Shown here: positions 1 to 12,292 of the stretch, piece by piece
How positions within the stretch are numbered: the stretch's first letter is position 1
Layout: every line of letters begins with the position of its first letter
Assembly: GCA_028679405.1 (NCBI GenBank)
Contig: JAJRBP010000289.1
Coordinates: 1 to 12,536 of the forward strand
Source: Methanoregulaceae archaeon
GTDB lineage: Archaea > Halobacteriota > Methanomicrobia > Methanomicrobiales > Methanospirillaceae
Length of the DNA stretch: 12,536 bases
Direction: 5' to 3'
Program-made: the position numbers and the translations under genes
The notes under the pieces: generated by a model
Seen by the model: the letters and a program-made list of their open reading frames with translations, nothing else
The model's database searches: none
Told to the model about the DNA's origin: nothing

Positions 1-544
1 TCTGGAACCAGAGGTAGGTCGGACCCATTGCAGACAGTATCGCATAGGCCTCCAGTGTCTCCTCTTTCACCTCCGGGCATCGGCCCAGGGGGGCGAGAAT
101 GGAAAGCACGCACGCTCTCCCGGACTTCCCGAGTGCCGGTGCAAATGCGAGAGGATTGTAGCCCTCCTGCACGATCGCGGGTGCGTTCGGTATCACCCTG
201 GCAATCCGGTTGAATCCGCCAAGCAATCCCTCGATAGATTTTATCGTCACTTTCGGCATGAGGGAGACGAGGATCGCGTCCTTCCTGATCGCGGTTTTCA
301 CCGTACCGAGAACGTCGCCTGCTGCCGGTGGGTGCACTGCAACGAAGACGAAATCCTGGCGGGCTGCTTCAGCGTTCTCATTCAGGAGAGTCGTGATCCC
401 CGGATACGCATTGTGCAGTTTCTCCAGTGTCACTGCGTTCGTGTCGCTGACCACCACCTTATCCGGAAGTGTCCCGTTCTTTTTCCATGCTTCGATAATG
501 ATACGGGAGACCCGCCCCCCGCCGATGAATCCAACCGATTGCAT
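1..544 (-). CDS. Pyrroline-5-carboxylate reductase-like NAD(P)-dependent dehydrogenase, N-terminal part (partial)
   Basis: Reading the minus strand from ATG at 544 gives 181 codons that stay open to the window edge, so the C-terminus is missing. The protein starts with a dinucleotide-binding fold: GFIGGG at residues 5-10 fits the glycine-rich loop, and SDTN near residue 33 ends the second strand. VIPNAPAIVQEGYNP (117-131) matches the MPNTPA..GEG block of ProC-type reductases, and ILSAMGPTY (169-177) matches the start of the dimerisation domain (usually SGSGPAY). ProC reduces pyrroline-5-carboxylate to proline in the cytosol, but SAMGPT and GGGRV differ from the classical enzyme, so this may be a paralogue with another imine or F420/NADP-type substrate. 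AAGGAG lies a few bases before the start. It has its own promoter and an ArsR-type palindrome, which is odd for a housekeeping proline gene. Family call fairly sure; substrate unsure. Confidence 0.82.
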   Translation of the reverse strand, partial: MQSVGFIGGGRVSRIIIEAWKKNGTLPDKVVVSDTNAVTLEKLHNAYPGITTLLNENAEAARQDFVFVAVHPPAAGDVLGTVKTAIRKDAILVSLMPKVTIKSIEGLLGGFNRIARVIPNAPAIVQEGYNPLAFAPALGKSGRACVLSILAPLGRCPEVKEETLEAYAILSAMGPTYLWFQ

Positions 545-683: not shown

Positions 684-1109
684 TTATTTTGCAGGAGACC
701 CGGGTTCACAACATTCCAGGCCGGGTTTTCTCTTCACTGACTTTTTCCGACGCTTCATTGTTTCAGGCAGATGCTGTGTCCCTTGTTCCGTGAGGGAGTA
801 GATAATCCAGTTTTTCTGCTGGGCTCCCTCGATCAGGCCGTTCTCCTTGAGGACGTTGAGGTGATAGGAGAGTTTCGAGTCGGCAATCCCGATTACCTCC
901 TTGATGATACAGACGCAGAGCGGCTGGACGCCGAGCAGCTGGATGATCTTGAGGCGGATGGGATCGGAGAGCGCCTGGTGAATCCGGCTCTCGGATTTGC
1001 GCTCCTCATCCCCGGGGATCCGGCTGACGAGACCGTGTATCCCTCCGCTTTTCTCCAGATCTTCCTGGATCGCGTCAGGGATCGAACCGGGAATCGTATT
1101 TTTTGCCAT
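684..1109 (-). CDS. arsR: ArsR/SmtB-family arsenic-responsive repressor
   Basis: A 141-residue winged-helix repressor. A core typical of ArsR (about residues 40-115) includes ALSDPIRLKIIQLL and the DNA-recognition helix in DSKLSYHLNVLKENGLI (77-93), followed by the wing strands NWIIYSLTEQG. PLCVC places Cys65 and Cys67 at the start of the helix that carries the ELCVCDL arsenite site in classical ArsR. The family binds operator DNA when metal-free and releases it on As(III)/Sb(III) binding. A second cysteine pair, Cys133-Cys134 in a basic tail, could supply further ligands. The N-terminal 35-40 residues are longer than usual. The gene is divergent from the thioredoxin/ACR3 operon, and palindromes flank both promoters, so it probably represses itself and that operon. 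No strong ribosome-binding site precedes the ATG, so a short leader or leaderless message is possible. Confidence 0.93.
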   Translation of the reverse strand: MAKNTIPGSIPDAIQEDLEKSGGIHGLVSRIPGDEERKSESRIHQALSDPIRLKIIQLLGVQPLCVCIIKEVIGIADSKLSYHLNVLKENGLIEGAQQKNWIIYSLTEQGTQHLPETMKRRKKSVKRKPGLECCEPGSPAK

Positions 1110-1126
1110 TTATGCCAACGCCTGAA

Positions 1127-1146
1127 ATTTCAAGTAATTGTGAAAT
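1127..1146. promoter_or_regulatory. Candidate ArsR operator at the arsR start site
   Basis: ATTTCA (1127-1132), eight bases, TGAAAT (1141-1146). The site lies 18-37 bases before the arsR start codon and overlaps the start site expected from the TATA box at about 1153-1162. This fits autorepression. Arms and spacing are identical to the site at 566-585. Confidence 0.65.
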
Positions 1147-1152
1147 GGAAAA

Positions 1153-1162
1153 GTATTTATTG
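1153..1162 (-). promoter_or_regulatory. Putative TATA box of arsR
   Basis: On the minus strand this reads CAATAAATAC, an A/T-rich box about 50 bases before the arsR start codon. The expected start site, near 1133, lies inside the palindrome at 1127-1146. Moderate match to the archaeal consensus. Confidence 0.4.
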
Positions 1163-1180
1163 ATACCGTGAAAAAAAAAT

Positions 1181-1200
1181 ATTTCAATTTAAATTGAATT
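1181..1200. promoter_or_regulatory. Candidate ArsR operator and promoter of the thioredoxin/ACR3 operon
   Basis: ATTTCA, eight bases, TGAATT; the inner 16 bases (1183-1198, TTCAATTTAAATTGAA) form a perfect palindrome. The centre, TTTAAATT, and the adjacent AAATATTT both resemble archaeal TATA elements for the plus-strand genes, so binding would cover the promoter. It shares the TTCA-N8-TGAA core with sites 566-585 and 1127-1146. Confidence 0.65.
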
Positions 1201-1217
1201 TGTCTGTGTGAGTGATA

Positions 1218-1478
1218 ATGCCAATGGATGACCGGATTCCCAGCTGCTCTGCCGATGCGGTCAGGAAGATACGTAGGATTGATGTGGCGGGTTGTGCAGT
1301 CGGAATTTCAAATCTCGATGATATCCTCGCGAGTGTGAGAGAGCTTGGACTCTCCGATCCCGTCCAGGTGCAAAGGGAGCTGATCGCACGGGTAAAGGTG
1401 TATAATTACGTTCCTCCTCCTGCAGAGGAGGCATATTCCGTGGCACTGATGAAAGAATATTCAGGGTTATTTTCATGA
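1218..1478 (+). CDS. Small conserved archaeal protein, first gene of the ars operon (function unknown)
   Basis: An 86-residue protein from ATG at 1218; GTG at 1212 and ATG at 1224 are other possible starts, and no ribosome-binding site clearly decides. There is a short Cys-containing N-terminus, a strand pair around IDVAGCAVGISNLDDIL, helices with VRELGLSDPVQVQRELIARVK, then NYVPPPAEEAY. This resembles a family of small methanogen proteins found next to MTH895-type thioredoxins, sometimes labelled NAC family transcription factor in databases; I recall that resemblance but cannot verify it here. The stop overlaps the thioredoxin start as ATGA, so the two are co-translated. A role as a partner or regulator of the thioredoxin is a guess from position. 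Confidence 0.78.
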   Translation: MPMDDRIPSCSADAVRKIRRIDVAGCAVGISNLDDILASVRELGLSDPVQVQRELIARVKVYNYVPPPAEEAYSVALMKEYSGLFS

Positions 1479-1717
1479 AGATTGAGGTGCTCGGGATCGG
1501 GTGCCCGAACTGCAGGAAATTGTCCGGGAACGTGCAGAAGGCGGTAGAGGACCTCGGCATCAGGGCCGAGATCGTGAAGGTCGATGATATGGCCGATATC
1601 ATGGGGAAAGGTGTCATGATCCTCCCGGCTCTCTTCGTGAACGGGGAGGCAAAGGTGGTGGGGAGGGTTGCCCCGGTCGACGAGATCAAACGTGTCCTGA
1701 AGGAGGCCGGCTCCTGA
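1475..1717 (+). CDS. Small CPNC thioredoxin (MTH895 type, ArsE-like)
   Basis: An 80-residue single-domain thioredoxin. Strand MKIEVLGIG leads into the active site CPNC (Cys10, Cys13); MILPALFVNG carries the expected cis-proline loop and a terminal strand, and a short helix closes the fold. At this size it is a minimal thioredoxin of the MTH895/thioredoxin_3 group, which occurs beside arsR and metalloid transporters. The ArsE component of described arsEFG clusters is, to my knowledge, of this type. It likely acts in the cytosol as a dithiol donor. The ferredoxin:thioredoxin reductase subunit two genes downstream is the natural electron source. It starts with an ATGA overlap with the preceding gene and is followed by an 85-base gap. 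Confidence 0.88.
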   Translation: MKIEVLGIGCPNCRKLSGNVQKAVEDLGIRAEIVKVDDMADIMGKGVMILPALFVNGEAKVVGRVAPVDEIKRVLKEAGS

Positions 1718-1802
1718 CCGGAAGATTTTTCGAACGCTTCCCTGGTCCGGATGCCAGTGTGTCCGGGTACAGGACCTCGGTATCAACACAGATGCAGGAT
1801 GT

Positions 1803-2504
1803 ATGGCCATGAAAATTGGAATTGTGAGCGACGGGAAGTTCGGTGACCGGGCTTTCGAGGTTATAAAGTCCGGGTTTCCTGAGACCATCTGGATAGATGT
1901 CCCTTTCCCGGCTTCCCAGATCGTGGACGACCTTGTCCTCGATGTCCCGGATTGCGACCTCTACATCTCGTATGCACGCCATCCGGACGTGGTACTGGCC
2001 CTTCTGGAGAAGCGGAAACCGACGATCCTCGGGATCAGTTTCGGACCCGGCTTTCTCCGGGATGCAAAAAGAGTCAACGAGGACCTCGTTGCGCCGGTGA
2101 CGATGTGCTCGCTTGAAGACACCACCTGGTCGGAAGAGATCAATGCATTCGCACGGGTATTTGGCAGGCCTGGATTTAAAATTGACCAGAAGGACGGGAT
2201 AATTACCACAGTTCAGGTCATCCGCGGGGCCCCCTGCGGTTCTACCTGGGGGGCCGCCGAAGAGATGGGCGGCCGGCCTGTCTCCCGGGAGGAGCTCCAG
2301 CACTTCGGGCTCCGGATCTGCCACTTCTGCCGCGCCCCGAGGTTCGGCCGGACCTGCGACAAGGAGTTCTCGGGGGTTCATCATATTCGCGAGTTCATAA
2401 GGGCGTTACGGAAGACCGGGCCTCTCAGTCCGGATGTCGAAAAATTTGCAGAGGAGATTGAAGGCCTCCATGAGACGAATATGAAAGCAATAGGGAATTT
2501 ATGA
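1803..2504 (+). CDS. DUF166 family cysteine-rich protein
   Basis: A 233-residue protein of the archaeal DUF166 family, so far without a proven role. Residues 3-80 look like an alpha/beta nucleotide- or substrate-binding fold (KIGIVSDGKFGDRAFEVI; ISYARHPDVVLALLEK). The C-terminal half holds a cysteine cluster: GAPCGSTWG (Cys145) and ICHFC..RTCD (Cys173, Cys176, Cys185), suited to a metal or Fe-S centre. ATG at 1803 or 1809 could start it; the second gives the usual MKIGIVS terminus, while AGG at 1796 is only 4 bases from the first, so the second may be correct. It overlaps the FTR gene as ATGA. Position between thioredoxin and FTR suggests a redox or arsenic-handling role here; that is inference. 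Confidence 0.85.
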   Translation: MAMKIGIVSDGKFGDRAFEVIKSGFPETIWIDVPFPASQIVDDLVLDVPDCDLYISYARHPDVVLALLEKRKPTILGISFGPGFLRDAKRVNEDLVAPVTMCSLEDTTWSEEINAFARVFGRPGFKIDQKDGIITTVQVIRGAPCGSTWGAAEEMGGRPVSREELQHFGLRICHFCRAPRFGRTCDKEFSGVHHIREFIRALRKTGPLSPDVEKFAEEIEGLHETNMKAIGNL

Positions 2505-2860
2505 CCGGCCCGGTGGAAAAGGACGATCGTCTCATCCAGGAAACAGTTGAGGAGGAGATCCTGGCCTGGGCGAAAGACTTTGCAGAAAAAAACGGGTATA
2601 TCCTGAATCCGGACGAGAAGAGGCTTCGGACCGTGATCAGGGGGCTCGCACGGAACCAGGTTAAGCATGGGGAACGGTATTGCCCGTGCCGGATCCGGTC
2701 CGGCGACCAGGAGAAGGACCGGCATATCATCTGCCCATGCGTCTACCACGGGAAGGAGATCGAAGAGGAGGGAATGTGCCATTGTAACCTCTTCTTTAGA
2801 AGAATGAAGGATGGGCTCGTTCCAGTCGAGAGCAAGTCGGTGAGCGGAAAAGAAAAATGA
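2501..2860 (+). CDS. Ferredoxin:thioredoxin reductase, catalytic (beta) subunit-like
   Basis: A 119-residue protein with the full FTR signature: CPC at 61-63, CPC at 78-80 and CHC at 93-95. In the family these cysteines hold a [4Fe-4S] cluster and an active-site disulfide, which takes electrons one at a time from ferredoxin and reduces a thioredoxin disulfide. Length matches the catalytic subunit. No variable (alpha) subunit lies beside it, as is common for archaeal relatives. It overlaps the DUF166 gene upstream and the DGC gene downstream, each by ATGA, so strict co-expression is expected. The CPNC thioredoxin encoded upstream is its likely partner. Ferredoxin is abundant in methanogens, which makes it a plausible electron source for the whole island. 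Confidence 0.9.
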   Translation: MTGPVEKDDRLIQETVEEEILAWAKDFAEKNGYILNPDEKRLRTVIRGLARNQVKHGERYCPCRIRSGDQEKDRHIICPCVYHGKEIEEEGMCHCNLFFRRMKDGLVPVESKSVSGKEK

Positions 2861-3234
2861 AAGTGCTCGTGACCTGTTCGGGGATCTCCAATACGGGAAA
2901 ACTCACCACCCAGGCAGCCGTTGCTCTCATGCGCCGTACACCCGGGGAGTACGAATGGGTGAAAGCGAAGGCCGTGGAAGATCTCCAAATCCCCTGTTCA
3001 GATGAAAACGATTCGATCATCGTGATCGAGGGCTGTACAGACCATTGCGCCTCGAAGAAACTCGATGCAGCGGGAATCGTCCCCACGGTACAGATCGTTG
3101 CAACCGAAATGGGAATCAGGAAGGACGGGATGGCCGATGTCAGGTTCGAAGAGATCGAACAGGTGGTGGGGGCAGTCAATGCGGCGATATCCGGGGTTGA
3201 CCAGGCGAAACCGGAAGACCGGGGAGACTTTTAA
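2857..3234 (+). CDS. DGC-domain putative zinc-binding protein, variant 1
   Basis: A 125-residue protein of the DGC family (named for its Asp-Gly-Cys motif). VTCSGISNTGKLT (Cys7) at the N-terminus and EGCTDHC (Cys60, Cys64) in the middle align with CCSGASNVGAL and DGCPTGC of the second copy at 4484-4867. Here the motif is EGC rather than DGC, and the following GRR is replaced by ASKK. An extra Cys47 lies in IPCSDE. The family has four or so cysteines and is predicted to bind zinc; location in arsenic operons suggests metalloid binding or transfer instead, which is untested. It starts by ATGA overlap with FTR, and its stop overlaps the start of a 59-codon frame as TAATG. Confidence 0.85.
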   Translation: MKVLVTCSGISNTGKLTTQAAVALMRRTPGEYEWVKAKAVEDLQIPCSDENDSIIVIEGCTDHCASKKLDAAGIVPTVQIVATEMGIRKDGMADVRFEEIEQVVGAVNAAISGVDQAKPEDRGDF

Positions 3235-3413
3235 TGATCCCGGATATCGATGAGACACAACTGTCATACCCTGCCCCGGGTTCTTCCGGGATGAAGCGGA
3301 TATCCTTGAACGGATTCCCTGACGGCTATGACGGGTTAACCGTTATGAAGAACGGGTTGTTGATTCCCGGGTCTCCGGCAGGGTTCCGGATGCGGGAGAA
3401 GATGAAACTATGA
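3234..3413 (+). CDS. Unrecognised 59-residue protein between DGC and ACR3 genes
   Basis: An open frame of 59 codons from ATG at 3234 to TGA at 3411-3413. The ATG shares its A with the DGC stop codon (TAATG), and the TGA overlaps the ACR3 start (ATGA), so it exactly fills the space between two real genes. GGGGAG sits about 7 bases before the ATG, inside the DGC gene. About two thirds of third codon positions are G or C, like the neighbours. The protein is soluble-looking, without cysteine, rich in Gly, Pro and Met, and ends in a basic FRMREKMKL. I recognise no family. It could be a real small partner of ACR3 or a frame kept open only for translational coupling. Confidence 0.62.
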   Translation: MIPDIDETQLSYPAPGSSGMKRISLNGFPDGYDGLTVMKNGLLIPGSPAGFRMREKMKL

Positions 3414-4465
3414 CGAACGGATCCGCCGGACTTGGCTGGGTTGAAAAACTTCTGGCCCTCTGGATATTCCTCTGTATCGTCATCGGTCTCGGTCTTGGCA
3501 GATACCTCCCTGAATTCAGCCAGAATCTTGGGATCGGGATCCCAATCGGGCTTTTCCTGATGATCTACCCGGCGATGACAAAGATCGAGCTCGGGGAACT
3601 CAGGGAAGCCCTGAAAAGCAGGAGACAGGTCGGGGTAATTGTCTTCTTCAATTATGCAGTCAACCCCTTCCTGCTCTACGCACTCGGCTGGATTTTTTTT
3701 GAGAATATCCTGCCCGCCCTCGGTTTGATCGCACCTGATACAGCCAGGTACCTCTGGACAGGGCTGATTCTTCTCGGAGTTGCGCCATGCATCGCGATGG
3801 TGCTTGTGTGGACCGATCTCGCCAGGGGAAACGGTCCGCTCGGGATCGTGCTCATGGCCTGGAACTCGATCATCCAGGTCTTTACCACGCCGTTCTACAT
3901 CGCATTGCTCGTCGGGACGTACATTGCGATCGACATCGTCCAGATCGGCCAGAGCGTCTTTCTCTATCTCGGTCTGCCGTTGCTTTTCGGAATCATCACG
4001 CGCAGGGAAGTTATCAGGCGAAAGGGCAGGGAGTGGCTGAACACGAAGCTGATCCCGCGGTTCAATACCCTCCAGCTCCTCGCGCTGCTCTTCACAATGG
4101 TCGTGATGTTCTCGCTCCGGGGAGGTGTAATCCTCGATGATCCGAACCTCATCTGGCAGATGGCGATCCCGGTTGTCCTGTTCTTCTTCCTGCTCTACAA
4201 CCTCGTCTACTTCACGACCCGGCGGATGGGCTACAACTACGAAGATTCGGCCACGATGGGGTTCCACTGCACGGGCAGGAACTTCGAGCTTGCGATCGCA
4301 ATTGCCTTAACCGCATTCGCATCCATCCCGATGGTCGCAGTCTCCACGGTTGTCGGGCCTCTGATTGAGATACCGGTGATGCTTGCGCTTGTGTGGCTCT
4401 CCCTCCGGAGAAGGGACCGTATTCTGCAGAAGGAAAGGGCAGGAAAGAATGCACAGGAAACCTGA
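3410..4465 (+). CDS. acr3: ACR3-type arsenite efflux permease
   Basis: A 351-residue, roughly ten-span membrane protein of the ACR3 (BASS superfamily) arsenite exporters. Key blocks are seen: MIYPAMTKIE (51-60), GVAPCIAMVLVWTDLARGN with Cys127, NFELAIAIAL with Glu293, and GPLIEIPV with Glu320. Cys127 and Glu320 are separated by the same 193 residues as Cys129 and Glu322, reported as essential in the Alkaliphilus metalliredigens protein. The family exports As(III) from the cytosol using the proton gradient. The loop before NFEL reads HCTGR, whereas I expect roughly TAASN in most members, so this belongs to a divergent branch. GGGAGAAG precedes the start, which overlaps the small upstream frame by ATGA. 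A second DGC gene follows after 18 bases. Confidence 0.95.
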   Translation: MTNGSAGLGWVEKLLALWIFLCIVIGLGLGRYLPEFSQNLGIGIPIGLFLMIYPAMTKIELGELREALKSRRQVGVIVFFNYAVNPFLLYALGWIFFENILPALGLIAPDTARYLWTGLILLGVAPCIAMVLVWTDLARGNGPLGIVLMAWNSIIQVFTTPFYIALLVGTYIAIDIVQIGQSVFLYLGLPLLFGIITRREVIRRKGREWLNTKLIPRFNTLQLLALLFTMVVMFSLRGGVILDDPNLIWQMAIPVVLFFFLLYNLVYFTTRRMGYNYEDSATMGFHCTGRNFELAIAIALTAFASIPMVAVSTVVGPLIEIPVMLALVWLSLRRRDRILQKERAGKNAQET

Positions 4466-4483
4466 TCCGAGGTACTGGTAGTT

Positions 4484-4867
4484 ATGACGAAAAAATCTCG
4501 GGAGAGTCAGGACATACCGAAAAAACCCACGAGGCTGATCTTCTGCTGTTCGGGCGCCTCGAACGTCGGGGCACTCTCCTACCTGGCATCGATGCGCCTT
4601 TCGCAGGAAGAATTCGGAAACTTTTCCTGTATCGCCGGGATCGCCGGAAATATCACTCCCATGGTCGAAGGCGCCAAGAAGGCACAGGAGCGGATCCTTA
4701 TCGACGGGTGCCCCACCGGATGCGGGCGGCGGATTATGGAGATCGCCCGGGTCCCGGTCGACCGTTATATCGTCGTCACGGAACTGGGGATTAAGAAGAC
4801 CCACGATTACGACGTAGACGACCTGGATATCGAAACGATCGTCAGGAAGGCGCGGCATCCCGGCTGA
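4484..4867 (+). CDS. DGC-domain putative zinc-binding protein, variant 2
   Basis: A 127-residue DGC-family protein with the canonical motif: CCSGASNVG (Cys21, Cys22) and IDGCPTGCGRR (Cys76, Cys80), plus Cys49 and the typical tail YIVVTELGIKKTHDYD. The first 16 residues are polar and basic. It is the last gene of the arsE/acr3 operon, 18 bases after acr3, with GAGGT about 11 bases before its ATG. It keeps every usual family residue, unlike the first copy, so the two probably differ in metal or partner. A cytosolic metal(loid)-binding or donor role to ACR3 is inferred from the linkage only. Confidence 0.88.
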   Translation: MTKKSRESQDIPKKPTRLIFCCSGASNVGALSYLASMRLSQEEFGNFSCIAGIAGNITPMVEGAKKAQERILIDGCPTGCGRRIMEIARVPVDRYIVVTELGIKKTHDYDVDDLDIETIVRKARHPG

Positions 4868-4965
4868 TATATACGCCGCTTTCATCGACAGAATTGTCCG
4901 GTAGTTGGACCTGGTATTCGGGGACCGGGAGATCCCAAATCTATTTATTCACAGGATGCCGTATT

Positions 4966-4986
4966 GTTTCAATTAAATTTTAAATA
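4966..4986 (+). promoter_or_regulatory. Promoter of the Cys-rich/ATPase unit with degenerate operator
   Basis: TTTTAAATA (4978-4986) is a strong archaeal TATA element; a start about 25 bases on (near 5007) would leave a leader of about 16 bases containing the GAGGTG ribosome-binding site. Overlapping it is TTCA (4968-4971), eight bases, TTAA (4980-4983), a weakened copy of the TTCA-N8-TGAA element. The TATA call is moderately sure; operator function is tentative because TTAA is expected in TATA boxes. Confidence 0.45.
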
Positions 4987-5022
4987 CCGGTATATCCCGG
5001 AAAAATTGAAGAGGTGCAAAAA

Positions 5023-5178
5023 ATGGCTGAAGAAAAGAAAAAGAAAGGATTCTTATCGGCGATCAAGGAATCGATGAACAAGTCCGGTGGCTGTTGCGGA
5101 GCGGGAGAGACCTGCGACTGCTCGGTACCCGCACCGGAACCGGAAAAGTCAAAGAAGAAGACCCCGCCCGGGAAGTGA
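5023..5178 (+). CDS. 51-residue cysteine-rich protein, possible metallochaperone
   Basis: ATG at 5023 is preceded by GAGGTG about 7 bases upstream, a good ribosome-binding site. The product has three parts: a lysine-rich start with a short helix (KKGFLSAIKESMNK), a tight cysteine cluster GGCCGAGETCDCS (Cys24, Cys25, Cys31, Cys33), and a Pro/Lys-rich tail. Four thiols in ten residues can bind one As(III), Cu(I) or Zn(II). It is the first gene of a unit with the P-type ATPase, 73 bases downstream. By analogy with ArsD or copper chaperones it may deliver metal to the ATPase, which lacks a metal-binding domain of its own; this is inference. I do not recognise a named family with certainty. Confidence 0.75.
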   Translation: MAEEKKKKGFLSAIKESMNKSGGCCGAGETCDCSVPAPEPEKSKKKTPPGK

Positions 5179-5251
5179 GCTGCCCGGGCCGGGAGCCCTG
5201 GTTGTATATTCACAAGGACTCGATCTTTCATGAAAAGAGGTAACCCTGTCT

Positions 5252-7156
5252 ATGGACGATGATCAAACGGAAACGGGAGGATATCGTGAATTCCTGGTGT
5301 TCGCTTTTGTGCCTCTTATCGTCGGGGTTCTCATCATCGTCAGCTGGATGATCTCATTCTTCCAGCTCGTTCCATTTTATGTGAGCGGAGGCGTTGCCCT
5401 TGCCGCGACACTCTTCGGGGGATACACCAGATTTGTCTCTGGTTTCCGGGATATATACCGGCGGAAGATTACCGTCAACGTGTTCGTGACCGTCGCCCTG
5501 ATCGCGACTATCCTGGTCGGGCAGTTCCTTTCGGCCGCCCTCATCGTGTTCATCATGGCGACCGTGGGGGCGTTCGAATCGTATACCCTCGACAAGACCA
5601 GGAAGAATATCCGGGGGCTCCTTGACTTTGCTCCGAAGATGGCAACAGTCCGTCGCGGCACAGAAGAAGTGACCATACCTGCCGCCGATGTCCGGATAAA
5701 TGACACTGTCGTGATCAGGCCGGGGGAACGTATTCCGGTGGATGGCGTTGTGGTATCCGGAGCGAGCAGCGTGAACCAGGCCCCGATCACCGGAGAATCG
5801 ATACCGGTCGAAAAGATGCAAGGCAGCGAGGTGTTCAGCGCAACGATGAACGAGACCGGCCACCTCGAGGTCCGGACAACCCGGGTTGGTGAAGACACGA
5901 CCCTCGCCCGGATCGTCCACCTCGTCGAAGGGGCTCAAGGTACACGGGCACCTATCCAGGGCATCGCTGACCGGTTCACGACCTGGTTTCTCCCGGCCGT
6001 CATCGTTATCGGCATTATCGGGTATCTTCTCTCCGGGCAGGTCCTTGTCTTTGTCTCTGTCCTGCTTGTCGCCTGCCCCTGTGCCTTCGCGATCGCCACA
6101 CCGACTGCGGTCACCGCCGGGATATCCAACCTTGCACGCCGGGGTGTTCTCATCAAGGGCGGGAGTTTCCTCGAGAATGCAGGAAAACTCGACACCCTCC
6201 TCGTAGACAAGACCGGGACGTTCACCCTTGGTATGCCGAAGGTTGTTGCCGTAGTCCCGGTCGCAGGGCAACGGGAGGAGGAAGTGGTCCTCTTCGCCGC
6301 GACCGGAGAAAAGTTCTCCGAGCATCCCCTCGCCGGGGCGATCCTCACCGCAGCCCGTGAATGGAATCTTTCTGTCCCTGATCCCGATGAATTTAAGAGT
6401 GAAACAGGAATGGGAATTACCGCACGGTCAGGTGACCACACCCTCATCGTTGGAAAACCGGAACTGGTCGCTGCAAAAGGTATCGTTCTGGACGAGCGCA
6501 TGCAAACCCTCATCGCAGAGCAGACGGATCTTGGGAGGACCGCGATCCTTGTCGCCCGGGATTCATCTGTCGTGGGCCTGGTTGCCATTGCAGACGAGAT
6601 CCGCCCGGGGACAAGGGAGGCCGTCGCAGCGCTGAAGCAGATGGGCGTGAAGAACATCACCATGCTCACCGGGGATAACCCGACGGTCGCAAAGGCAGTC
6701 AGCACGGCGATCGGGATCGACGGGTTCCAGGCAAACCTCCTCCCCGAGCAGAAACTCGGTATCGTGGGGAAACTGCAGGATGAAGGTCAGCTCGTGGGGA
6801 TGATCGGGGACGGCATCAACGACGCTCCCGCCCTTGCGAAGGCAGATGTCGGTATTGCGATGGGGGCGTCCGGCACCGATGTCGCGATCGAGACCGCGGA
6901 CGTGACCCTGATGAAGGATGACCTCTGGCAGTTCGTTGACTTCCTGTGGATGTCGAAGAAGGTCATCCGCCGGATCAAGATCAACATCGGGCTTTCCATG
7001 GTGTACAATGTGATCGGGCTCCTGCTCGGGGTCCAGGCGCTGCTTTCGCCCATTACGGCGACGATCTACCAGGAAGCGGGCTGTATCTCGGTCGTGTTCA
7101 GCTCGACTCTCCTCCTGTGGGCAAACCCGGGGTACAGCCACCCGGCAACAAAATAA
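5252..7156 (+). CDS. P1B-type heavy-metal-transporting ATPase without N-terminal metal-binding domain
   Basis: A 634-residue membrane ATPase. In order: two N-terminal membrane hairpins (about 13-105), actuator domain with TGES (180-183), CPC in transmembrane helix 6 (Cys275, Cys277), phosphorylation site DKTGT (Asp319), SEHPL in the nucleotide domain (His358), MLTGDNP, hinge GDGINDAPAL (520-529), and two final helices with YN (585-586) and QEAGCISVVFSS (607-618). CPC marks transition-metal pumps of the Cu(I)/Zn(II) groups. The last helix has neither the MSxSS of Cu(I) pumps nor the usual Zn(II) pattern, and it carries an extra Cys611, so the cargo cannot be called. No heavy-metal-associated domain or His-rich tail is present. 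AAGAGGT lies 10 bases before the ATG. It probably works with the 51-residue cysteine protein encoded just upstream. Confidence 0.93.
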   Translation: MDDDQTETGGYREFLVFAFVPLIVGVLIIVSWMISFFQLVPFYVSGGVALAATLFGGYTRFVSGFRDIYRRKITVNVFVTVALIATILVGQFLSAALIVFIMATVGAFESYTLDKTRKNIRGLLDFAPKMATVRRGTEEVTIPAADVRINDTVVIRPGERIPVDGVVVSGASSVNQAPITGESIPVEKMQGSEVFSATMNETGHLEVRTTRVGEDTTLARIVHLVEGAQGTRAPIQGIADRFTTWFLPAVIVIGIIGYLLSGQVLVFVSVLLVACPCAFAIATPTAVTAGISNLARRGVLIKGGSFLENAGKLDTLLVDKTGTFTLGMPKVVAVVPVAGQREEEVVLFAATGEKFSEHPLAGAILTAAREWNLSVPDPDEFKSETGMGITARSGDHTLIVGKPELVAAKGIVLDERMQTLIAEQTDLGRTAILVARDSSVVGLVAIADEIRPGTREAVAALKQMGVKNITMLTGDNPTVAKAVSTAIGIDGFQANLLPEQKLGIVGKLQDEGQLVGMIGDGINDAPALAKADVGIAMGASGTDVAIETADVTLMKDDLWQFVDFLWMSKKVIRRIKINIGLSMVYNVIGLLLGVQALLSPITATIYQEAGCISVVFSSTLLLWANPGYSHPATK

Positions 7157-10490: not shown

Positions 10491-11207
10491 ATGGACCTTT
10501 TTTCCTTCATGGAGGCGATGGGCGGGAGCGAGCTTGCTCTTATCGCGGCTTTTTTCATCGGCCTCATGATGGCGTTCTCCCCCTGTACCCTGGCAAACAA
10601 CATCGCCGCCGTCGCATTCATCGCGAAGAAGATGGGGAGCGGGCGTTACACCGTCCTGGTGGGGACGGTCTATACCATCGGCCGGATGTGCACGTATGTC
10701 GCGGTTGCTTCGATCATCGTGCTCCTTGGCCTGAATATCCAGGATATGGCGCTTGGTCTCCAGCAGTACGGGGCGCTGCTGATCGGCCCCGTCTGTATCA
10801 TTATCGGGGTCCTCCTCCTCGGGATCCTTCCGCTCGACCGTTTCGTCCCGAAAAATCCGCTGCAGGGACTGTCCGGGCGTCTGGCTGAAAAAGGGTATCT
10901 TGGCAGCTTCCTGATCGGTGTAATTTTTGCCCTCACCTTCTGCCCGTTTTCAGCAGTGCTGTATTTCGGGATGCTCATCCCGCTCGCCCTCCGGGAAGGA
11001 GACGCTCTCGTGATACCGGCAGTTTTCGCCATTGCGACCGGGCTTCCGGTGATCGTGTTCTCGTTCCTCCTTGTCTCCGGGATGTCAAGGCTCGGGCAGG
11101 CCATGAAGCGCATCGGGTCAATCGAGAAGTGGATGCGATGGGGTGTCGCAGTCCTTTTCATCGCGATAGGGGTTTATTATGTAGTCCTTGCTCTGGCACC
11201 GGCATAA
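10491..11207 (+). CDS. arsG: ArsG-family / CcdA-like membrane protein
   Basis: A 238-residue, six-span membrane protein with the CcdA/DsbD core: FSPCTLANN (Cys32) in the first helix and TFCPFSAVLYFG (Cys151) in the fourth. In CcdA these two cysteines carry thiol electrons across the membrane. The closest named family is the ArsG aromatic arsenical efflux permease, and the gene follows arsF without a gap (TAG then ATG), as in arsEFG clusters. Two further cysteines (Cys67, Cys102) lie in membrane helices. The retained CcdA pair leaves two readings: an exporter of trivalent aromatic arsenicals, or an electron conduit from cytosolic thioredoxin to the lipoprotein ArsF. The sequence alone does not decide. 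Confidence 0.88.
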   Translation: MDLFSFMEAMGGSELALIAAFFIGLMMAFSPCTLANNIAAVAFIAKKMGSGRYTVLVGTVYTIGRMCTYVAVASIIVLLGLNIQDMALGLQQYGALLIGPVCIIIGVLLLGILPLDRFVPKNPLQGLSGRLAEKGYLGSFLIGVIFALTFCPFSAVLYFGMLIPLALREGDALVIPAVFAIATGLPVIVFSFLLVSGMSRLGQAMKRIGSIEKWMRWGVAVLFIAIGVYYVVLALAPA

Positions 11208-11373
11208 CCGTCACCGGCGGGACAGATCTTTTGATGTTTCCGGGCTGATCCGGGCTCCTGAATCCTGAAAGGTCCGGATTCACCCGCACAGTGGCCCTGA
11301 ACGTTCCCTGATCCAGGTTCGCATACTGCACGTTCAGACCGGATTCATTGAAAATGGATATCAATTAAAAACG

Positions 11374-11387
11374 AAAATTATAAGTAG
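11374..11387 (+). promoter_or_regulatory. Archaeal promoter of the structured RNA region
   Basis: GAAAATTATAAGTA matches a BRE/TATA arrangement well. A start about 25 bases past the box would lie near 11400-11408, exactly where the closing stem of the predicted RNA begins. The interval 11208-11373 before it holds nothing I can support. Confidence 0.55.
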
Positions 11388-11399
11388 AATAAACGCTAT

Positions 11400-11763
11400 G
11401 CAGGGTACGCCTCAAGAGGAAGGGGCTCGAGGGATGCACTACCGGGTGCGATGAGTCTGCGAGGTCCGGACGGCGAAGGATCTTCAGGCGACCAGGAAAC
11501 CGCATCAGGGTAGCCGACCAGGTGCCGCAGGTACTATCCTGCCGTACCCGGGTGAGGCCGCAGGTCCAAACGGCGAAAGACCTGTGACCGGAAAAGACGC
11601 CGGGAATACGGGGCCGGACAGATAAACCGGGGTAAACCTGCCGTTGCCAGGGTGATCTGCGGGCATAAACAGCGGAATGCCTGCGGATGCGACAAAGTAT
11701 ACGCCTGGCACCGGGGCTGATTCGTGTCCCGCGATACGGGTCTCTCCTTTGGGGCACCCTTGC
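11400..11763 (+). ncRNA. Candidate structured non-coding RNA of about 365 nucleotides, no known family
   Basis: The 650 bases between arsG and the next gene hold no convincing protein gene but many strong stems. The ends pair: GCAGGGT (11400-11406) and GCC (11409-11411) with GGC and ACCCTTGC (11753-11763). Inside are TGCACT/GGTGCG (11435-11450), GAGGTCC/GGATCTTC (11461-11485), an 11-position stem with one mismatch (11521-11531 with 11538-11548), CAGGTC/GACCTG (11561-11584), GCCAGG/CCTGGC (11646-11651 with 11704-11709) enclosing a ten-pair stem (11657-11666 with 11677-11686), and CCCG/CGGG (11728-11740). Two hairpins share the loop ACGGCGAA. A promoter precedes it and a hairpin follows. I looked for RNase P, SRP and cobalamin-riboswitch motifs and did not find them. 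Strand is inferred from the promoter. Confidence 0.5.
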
Positions 11764-11781
11764 TTTTGGGATTTCCCAAAA
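11764..11781. terminator. Hairpin at the end of the structured RNA region
   Basis: TTTTGGG (11764-11770), ATTT loop, CCCAAAA (11775-11781): a perfect seven-pair stem that begins one base after the closing helix of the RNA candidate. It may end or protect the transcript. No long T-run follows on the plus strand. Confidence 0.4.
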
Positions 11782-11820
11782 ACCGCCTGACTTTTCTGGT
11801 TCGCGTGCACCGGATACCTG

Positions 11821-11842
11821 TTTAATGCATCAGCAGGCTGAT
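11821..11842 (+). promoter_or_regulatory. Putative promoter and inverted repeat before the C_GCAxxG gene
   Basis: TTTAATGC (11821-11828) may be a TATA box. It is followed at once by ATCAGC-AG-GCTGAT (11829-11842), a perfect inverted repeat between the box and the expected start site near 11849. That position suits an operator, but the sequence differs from the TTCA-N8-TGAA element, so another regulator would be involved. Confidence 0.35.
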
Positions 11843-11857
11843 ATATGAGGGAAGATC

Positions 11858-12292
11858 ATGAAGAAATCCGAAGAGGCATGTCAGTGTTTCATGGACCGGT
11901 TCACCTGCTCGGCCGCGGTCTTTTCTTCGTTTTCGGATGAACTCGGCCTCGACCCGGAAACGGCGAAAAAGATCGCGTGTGGCTTTGGTGCAGGCATTTC
12001 AAAAACCGGGAATATCTGTGGTGCGGTAACGGGAGGTATTATGGCAATCGGGCTGAAGTACGGGAAAACACGGGCCGATGACGAAGCCTCGACAGAAAAG
12101 ACCAGGGCGCTGGTTCGGCAGTTCATCACAGAGTTTACCGCCCGGAACGGCTCGATCAACTGCACGGATCTGCTCGGGTACGACCTGAGTGACCCCTCGG
12201 ACTATTCGGCGGCGAGTGCGAGCGGGCTTTTTGTGACGAAGTGCCCCCTGCTGGTGAAGGATGCCGCAGATATCCTTGAAAAGATCCTCTAG
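11858..12292 (+). CDS. C_GCAxxG_C_C family cysteine protein
   Basis: A 144-residue protein of the C_GCAxxG_C_C family (PF09719 type). CSAAVFSSFSDELGLD (Cys17) and GNICGAVTGGIMAIGLKYG (Cys54) form the signature, with KIACGFGAG (Cys41), Cys102 and Cys129 completing the conserved cysteine set; Cys8 and Cys10 form an extra pair at the start. The family is thought to bind a redox-active or metal centre, and its biochemical role is not settled to my knowledge. GAGGG lies about 10 bases before the ATG. Its placement at the end of an arsenic island fits a metal- or thiol-linked role, which is inference. It has its own promoter. Confidence 0.88.
   Translation: MKKSEEACQCFMDRFTCSAAVFSSFSDELGLDPETAKKIACGFGAGISKTGNICGAVTGGIMAIGLKYGKTRADDEASTEKTRALVRQFITEFTARNGSINCTDLLGYDLSDPSDYSAASASGLFVTKCPLLVKDAADILEKIL

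Follow-up and report, generated by a model that had tools for sequence, protein, structure and literature searches.

A Modular Pseudoknotted RNA Family with Three-Module and One-Module Forms in an Archaeal Order

Introduction

To our knowledge, large structured RNA classes from archaea are few. RNAs of the CsrB/CsrC type titrate a protein through tandem arms with conserved GGA loops, the number of which varies; the RNAs of type III toxin–antitoxin systems are made of short tandem pseudoknots with repeats of 34–46 nt and are cotranscribed from just upstream of a toxin gene of the ToxN/CptN/TenpN type; and tmRNA contains several pseudoknots closed by a terminal helix, at a size similar to that of the RNA reported here. 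OLE, ROOL and GOLLD are presented as large ornate RNAs (PMC12286853). The available literature, which lay mostly outside subscription papers and preprints, held no description of the present RNA, and the accessible text of PMC2864571 contains neither the stem of the name of the order concerned nor any of four genus names.

The window, i.e., the whole stretch of DNA that was analysed (12,536 nt), is a contig of an incomplete archaeal genome (73% complete), in which an initial annotation had proposed a strong candidate for a new structured archaeal RNA. The candidate exceeds that description, being a member of a family that is spread across one order, in many related methanogens, and occurs in one-module and three-module forms.

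Results

Locus and Architecture of the Window RNA

The three-module RNA is located on the forward strand of the window at 11401–11768, with predicted ends, and 11401–11759 is matched by the covariance model R1 described below. Its upstream neighbour is an ArsG-type permease gene (10491–11207), and a C_GCAxxG_C_C gene (11858–12292) starts on the same strand 90 nt past 11768; a G/A-rich stretch with an AT skew of up to 0.47 lies between the two genes. Farther upstream, positions 684–7156 hold an arsenic/metal resistance cluster encoding an ArsR-type regulator, an ArsE-type thioredoxin, a DUF166 protein, a DGC protein, an Acr3-type exporter and a heavy-metal P-type ATPase. A TATA-type promoter box was observed at 11375–11386 (forward strand), in agreement with the promoter claimed by the initial annotation, and the A/T share at −26 to −15 across 48 three-module loci (window included) ranges from 0.81 to 1.00, reaching at least 0.90 at ten of the twelve positions; transcription probably starts at about 11401–11408. 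At the other end, a T-run (11764–11767) and a small flanking hairpin form a terminator-like element on the same strand (11764–11781), the hairpin being present as annotated, and across the family T is enriched just past the end of the RNA, with one position reaching 0.96 in the one-module RNAs.

The architecture consists of a closing helix and three tandem arms of ~100 nt, which are copies of one module, and each module is an arm of two parts with an apical loop, CGGC, that is able to pair with GCCG immediately 3' of the arm. All parts given here are on the forward strand. The closing helix P1, placed by covariation and model alignment, joins a 5' strand (GCCTC..., 11409–11420) to a 3' strand (...GGGGC, 11743–11755), and the paired ends of the initial annotation are found here, where GCCTC from 11409 pairs with GGGGC up to 11755 and TTTT follows at 11764–11767. 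Helix P2 (5' strand 11431–11439, 3' strand 11724–11730) is placed by model alignment, while its pairing in the window, GGGA..CAC with GTG..TCCC, was read by eye and has partial support among the homologues (helices 2–3 of alignment A4). The arm of module 1 (11439–11513) comprises an outer helix, an internal loop, an inner helix and a loop (covariation of helices 4–6), and is followed by the arms of module 2 (11544–11609; helices 9–11 in the covariation test) and module 3 (11641–11714; helices 13–15). The ten-base loops GGACGGCGAA (11468–11477), AAACGGCGAA (11568–11577) and AAACAGCGGA (11667–11676) sit on three hairpins with differing stems. The pseudoknot strands are GCCG at 11513–11516 with its partner CGGC at 11471–11474 in module 1, GCCG at 11613–11616 with CGGC at 11571–11574 in module 2, and GCTG at 11716–11719 with CAGC at 11670–11673 in module 3, where both sides are changed relative to CGGC/GCCG. 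Counted on the sequence, the inner stem of the third arm has twelve consecutive pairs including wobbles (11655–11666/11677–11688) and its outer stem has 10 of 11 pairs (11641–11651/11704–11714), and the other two arms follow the same plan, so that the internal stems previously proposed are borne out.

The repetition itself was missing from the initial annotation. The window RNA aligns to itself over 173 nt at an offset of about 101 nt, with an off-diagonal score of 31 against a mean of 11.2 (sd 1.6, maximum 16) in 200 dinucleotide shuffles under simple scoring; module identities were computed from 12 three-module and 10 one-module RNAs together with the window. Folding gave z = −2.99 on the forward strand (0 of 100 shuffles as good) and −0.94 on the reverse strand (18 of 100). 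Among eight homologues the z-scores vary, e.g., −0.6 in L214, −1.6 in L137, and −4.7 and −4.5 on the two strands in L121, so the strand is not proven by single-sequence folding.

Homologues, Covariation and the Covariance Model

Nucleotide BLAST with the window RNA found only the RNA itself among 41 relatives, and at E ≤ 1 in 232 genomes of the order it returned short words in 191 genomes, which were read as chance; plasmids and phages gave no match. Under relaxed scoring the strongest match (L003, G167) runs into the last part of a protein-coding frame, and it was likewise taken as chance. A synteny search by way of the C_GCAxxG_C_C gene gave no similar RNA by BLAST at 29 other loci, where a much diverged RNA could escape. 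The pattern ACGGCGAA-85..115-ACGGCGAA has matches in 31 of the 232 genomes, and a backwards-read pattern also matches many genomes, so the count by itself proves nothing; decisive for opening the family was that five of the matches, in genus g8, share one non-coding-looking sequence. BLAST from the homologue in G161 then reached 28 of the 232 genomes, in five genera. Common to these homologues and the window are the 5' end GCCTCA, three ACGGC-type loops, GGGGCCG-like strands after each arm and a 3' GGGGC.

The RNAalifold structure on alignment A4 (28 homologues, excluding the window) has 77 pairs, 51 of which are changed on both sides. For the final structure of 83 pairs, pairs judged to be artefacts were dropped and three 4-bp pseudoknots were added; pairs 113–116/327–330 had been removed before model building as an artefact of two GGCC palindromes. 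Pairing is maintained in 93.6% of cells against 78.5% in shuffled alignments, both-side changes occur in 52 of the 83 pairs against a shuffled mean of 37.8, and covariation is 0.472 against 0.201 (sd 0.007), in shuffles that ignore the relatedness of the sequences. Slid structures reached at most 0.113, a control that leans toward the structure since the latter was derived from A4 itself. In P2 and the outer arms, some pairs fail in as many as 8 of the 28 sequences.

Alignments A3 and A4 used 28 of 29 pieces, leaving out L149, the second piece of G229, a place that later scored 249.5 bits with R1. Alignment A5 comprises 33 sources, namely the window, 20 divergent loci and 12 of 29 Methanolinea-type loci. 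R1, a covariance model of 348 positions built from the 28 homologues without the window, recovers the window RNA in full length (11401–11759; 109.1 bits, E = 8e-28), no other match in the window exceeding 10.6 bits, and the window forms 63 of the 71 nested pairs of the model as standard pairs, with one gapped. In A3, made with MAFFT, the third module of the window is misaligned, with 66 of 83 pairs formed and the third pseudoknot seemingly broken; in the model alignment 63 of 71 nested pairs form and this pseudoknot is intact. Homologous intergenic regions with many compensatory changes exist, and the proposal of a new structured archaeal RNA is supported by a model built without the window; the family is almost certainly real and trans-acting.

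Known RNA Families

The initial annotation had stated that the RNA matches none of the families that could be tested by eye, and Rfam 15, SRP RNA included, gave no match to the window at gathering score. Five and eight homologous loci likewise had none at gathering score, so that the search is negative at curated thresholds for window and homologues, and one three-module and one one-module homologue had none at E ≤ 3. At E ≤ 10, six matches fall within 11150–11900, all of them far below the thresholds, and archaeal RNase P RNA (RF00373) is not among them. RNase P identity, which would have contradicted the annotation, does not apply, as the RNase P RNA of related genomes is a different RNA that scores 178–214 bits in 36 of 41 genomes; none was found in the genome of the window itself, most likely owing to its 73% completeness. 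ARAGORN reported no tmRNA in the window, the T-arm motif GTTCNANTC is absent, and 11401–11768 contains no exact C box RUGAUGA and a single CTGA (D box CUGA). For H/ACA sRNAs, pseudouridine guides that have pocketed hairpins and a 3' ANA box, the comparison covered motif positions.

Conservation of the Pseudoknots

Pseudoknot counts were taken over 31 of the 33 A5 sources, two one-module rows being set aside, and only sequences with letters at the positions concerned were counted. Among the three-module RNAs, the first pseudoknot has four standard pairs in 28 of 28, the second in 23 of 27 and the third in 29 of 29. The exceptions in the second are L208, L211 and L217, which carry an A–C mismatch, and L222; these form three of the four pairs. 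Both sides have changed together in the third pseudoknot of the window, L142 and L147 (CAGC/GCTG), while L148, a close relative of L147, retains CGGC/GCCG, and in the first pseudoknot of L215 (CGGU/ACCG). Among the one-module RNAs, 24 of 27 form the four pairs, 18 of these as CGGU/ACCG, and 3 of 27 fail. In L207 and L209 (family f2, genus g27), the hairpin end of module 2 seems swapped for a longer insert without CGGC, with ACCG kept. A first idea, in which the loops would pair with GCCGT farther downstream, was dropped when the homologues showed GCCG directly after each arm.

Distribution of the Three-Module and One-Module Forms

Searching with R1 at E ≤ 0.001 gave matches in 50 of the 232 genomes of the order, distributed over the families f1 (33), f4 (10), f2 (4), f5 (2) and f3 (1). 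Full-length matches of at least 82 bits were obtained in 45 genomes, and the five others (G113, G129, G031, G128 and G080) score 28 to 36 bits, although G129 reached 53 bits over full length when a smaller search was run. In genus g4, R1 matched no more than 4 of the 39 genomes, and it matched none in several genera of the same family; scoring covered 6 of about 300 first-look candidates in each genome, so absence from this search is weak evidence. Two of the weak matches are complete one-module RNAs of 151–153 nt, which share the closing helix and have a single arm. BLAST from one such RNA reached 25 of 40 genomes of f5, and its 26 loci together with L224 form alignment A6, from which 27 one-module RNAs the second model, R2 (~150 nt), was built; R2 matches 32 of the 232 genomes, of which 31 belong to f5 and one to f3.

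The genomes G080, G112 and G113 each have the one-module gene in two or three separate copies. In L252 (894–1046 and 1373–1523) and in G112 (C1:249319 and 249730), separate one-module genes lie about 410–480 nt apart, and such closely spaced pairs may possibly represent an intermediate of module duplication. Detection between the two forms is partial: R1 finds the one-module RNAs L226 (29.6 bits) and L228, scarcely finds L246 and does not find L249, L121 reaches 29.4 bits across the sets, and R2 misses the RNA of the window, where its best match (11.3 bits) lies elsewhere. The link between the one-module and three-module RNAs therefore rests on weak cross-matches and the shared plan.

Among 294 genomes sampled from the phylum, R1 matches 18 and R2 10, all within the same order. 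An exact two-motif pattern, a motif pair absent from the window itself, was found on 26 contigs in 84,980 GTDB species, 24 of which are titled Methanolinea, Methanoregulaceae or Methanomicrobiales and two 'Euryarchaeota archaeon', the RNAs of the latter two being loci of the window's family; the family pattern had no match in viral contigs. The unpaired stretches GAACAAATGTTC and GGAACATGATGC, conserved in the Methanolinea-type RNAs, are not retained by the window RNA. Another conserved element that looks non-coding (GGAGGC..ATGGATTGGAACGTTCAGTCGGTGA..) occurs roughly 100–150 nt past the RNA in L112 (about 1800–1905) and also in L111 and L115, and in these three Methanolinea-type genomes it has no Rfam match at gathering score.

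Gene Neighbourhood and Coding Potential

Different neighbours were observed among 26 named loci, the upstream genes, as judged by eye, encoding a symporter, an aminotransferase, a substrate-binding protein or an aldehyde dehydrogenase, and the nearest downstream ORF, picked mechanically, being on the opposite strand in 16 of the 24 named loci with an ORF listed. Neighbour genes and strands thus vary among loci, unlike those of a cis-acting leader or riboswitch. Stop-free runs of at least 100 aa occur in 10 of 29 RNAs in differing frames, no conserved reading frame was found across the family, and in the window the 130-aa minus-strand ORF has no Pfam match and the 101-aa ORF no NCBIfam match; the initial annotation had likewise regarded no reading frame as genuine, and the locus is very probably an RNA gene that makes no protein. 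It is a conserved structured RNA with a promoter box at a fixed distance and a module number of three or one. Because the promoter box holds a fixed place and the neighbours vary, we infer that the RNA is transcribed as a discrete molecule of ~360 nt and acts in trans.

The RNase III-Domain Neighbour in Two Families

An RNase III-domain gene adjoins the RNA in divergent orientation at all 14 R1 loci of f4 (10) and f2 (4), its start lying 51–153 nt from the 5' end of the RNA in 13 loci and 405 nt in one. The domain (PF00636) was recognised at E = 1e-11 in the one protein tested. The gene at L222 (615–1328, minus strand) and those at the 13 other loci encode an RNase III-domain protein family of the order with a long N-terminal part, and relatives were found in Methanofollis liminatans, M. 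fontis, M. formosanus, Methanoculleus and others, and in one Thorarchaeota. When 45 relatives were aligned with the solved ribonuclease III 1o0w, two of the four positions that we take to be catalytic were found replaced, by A in 44 of 45 sequences (the 45th row being mis-located by the search pattern) and by T in 43 of the 43 readable ones; the other two retain D and E. Active Mini-III enzymes also carry A and T at those two positions, so the replacements are not decisive for the activity of the protein.

The gene was not found in any of 20 regions of about 20 kb around the RNAs of f1 (10) and f5 (10), nor in the window. In the f1 genome G172, a relative with about 28% identity is encoded next to the C_GCAxxG_C_C gene, on the contig that bears the RNA and roughly 65 kb away from it. 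A diverged RNase III-domain relative in L080 (557–1288) lies beside a C_GCAxxG_C_C gene, the same kind of gene as follows the RNA in the window, possibly by coincidence. PADLOC gave no match for six neighbour proteins, three of them from the window.

Discussion

Repeats with conserved loops, differing stems and a variable number suit the needs of a titrating or multivalent RNA, and the RNA is tentatively read as a putative multivalent protein-binding scaffold or sponge, to which we assign a probability of roughly 0.4. Each pseudoknotted arm would serve as the binding site for one protein, and the number of modules would set the capacity of the RNA, either with three in one molecule or with one to three separate one-module genes. 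The first candidate partner would be the RNase III-domain protein whose gene adjoins the RNA in divergent orientation in two families; that this gene was not found in the 20 regions around f1 and f5 RNAs or in the window counts against this reading. The stretches GAACAAATGTTC and GGAACATGATGC, not being kept in the window, cannot be a general binding site.

Retention within a single order, mostly in single copy, is also compatible with a housekeeping particle, and the RNA might belong to a housekeeping or regulatory particle on a large machine such as RNA polymerase, the ribosome or the membrane-targeting apparatus, with modules that are structural arms and not titration sites. The single locus in most genomes, the presence in several families of one order and the conserved promoter box agree with this, but the module number shifts from three to one, the RNA was not found outside the order among the 294 sampled genomes and no particle RNA of Rfam matches, so that this explanation is considered unlikely. 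A regulatory RNA that base-pairs with mRNAs in antisense from a stable scaffold would likewise have its own promoter box and a T-enriched end; its possible seeds, however, would be GGAACATGATGC and GAACAAATGTTC, which the window has not kept and which are inconspicuous in the one-module alignment, and the conserved loops may be tied up in the pseudoknots, which makes it quite unlikely. Improbable too, if somewhat less so than the explanations that follow, is a specific version in which the modular RNA would bind a dedicated RNase III-fold protein whose catalytic centre is altered, one subunit per pseudoknotted arm; the RNA would act as assembly scaffold and inhibitor of this protein, and the three-arm RNA would be a covalent version of a one-arm trimer.

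Tandem pseudoknots and the adjacent RNase III-domain gene at 14 of 14 loci of two families recall a type III toxin–antitoxin RNA that restrains an endonuclease, here one with an RNase III domain. Such a system is very unlikely, as the gene is divergent and was not found in the 20 other regions, the modules measure ~100 nt against 34–46 nt, the RNA is kept in several families of one order and searches of plasmids and viral contigs did not find it, the six neighbour proteins have no PADLOC match and two presumed catalytic positions are replaced in the protein. An RNA-only homo-oligomer of the kind reported for GOLLD, ROOL and OLE, in which three modules per chain would replace three one-module chains, would account for a modular, loop-rich RNA with one-module and three-module forms, yet Rfam relates the RNA to none of them, and its chances appear just as slim. 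That the RNA is a leader, i.e., a riboswitch-like element, of the C_GCAxxG_C_C gene at 11858 can be practically dismissed despite the same-strand start of this gene 90 nt downstream in the window, given the T-run and hairpin that intervene at 11764–11781, the differing and often opposite-strand downstream genes of other species and the lack of a BLAST-detectable RNA, a much diverged one aside, at 29 other loci of its relatives.

The family combines strong covariation with a simple modular plan whose copy number differs between relatives, and it offers a natural experiment in the growth of a large RNA by duplication of a pseudoknot module. Members occur in the cultured species Methanofollis liminatans, M. 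formosanus and M. fontis, and presumably also in Methanoculleus, so its function is directly testable. The RNA family and its architecture appear to be new, and this claim stands apart from the mechanism, which may prove to be of a known kind.

Several known systems share single features with the RNA. Archaeal RNase P RNA (RF00373) is of similar length, but its model does not match, and in several genomes a true RNase P RNA exists alongside the new one. The likeness to tmRNA lies in a similar size and in several pseudoknots with a terminal closing helix, whereas the new RNA is without a tRNA-like end or a tag frame. With OLE, ROOL and GOLLD it shares a large, ornate and stand-alone character, but no Rfam model matches and the new RNA is modular, with one or three units. 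ToxI is similar in its tandem pseudoknot repeats and, in two families, in the endonuclease-fold gene next door, and differs in repeat length, the closing helix, the divergent gene order and the failure to find such a gene near most copies of the RNA. CsrB/CsrC-type RNAs resemble it in their tandem arms with a conserved loop, freely differing stems and variable number, whereas the new RNA is without GGA loops, is built from pseudoknotted modules of ~100 nt and is archaeal.
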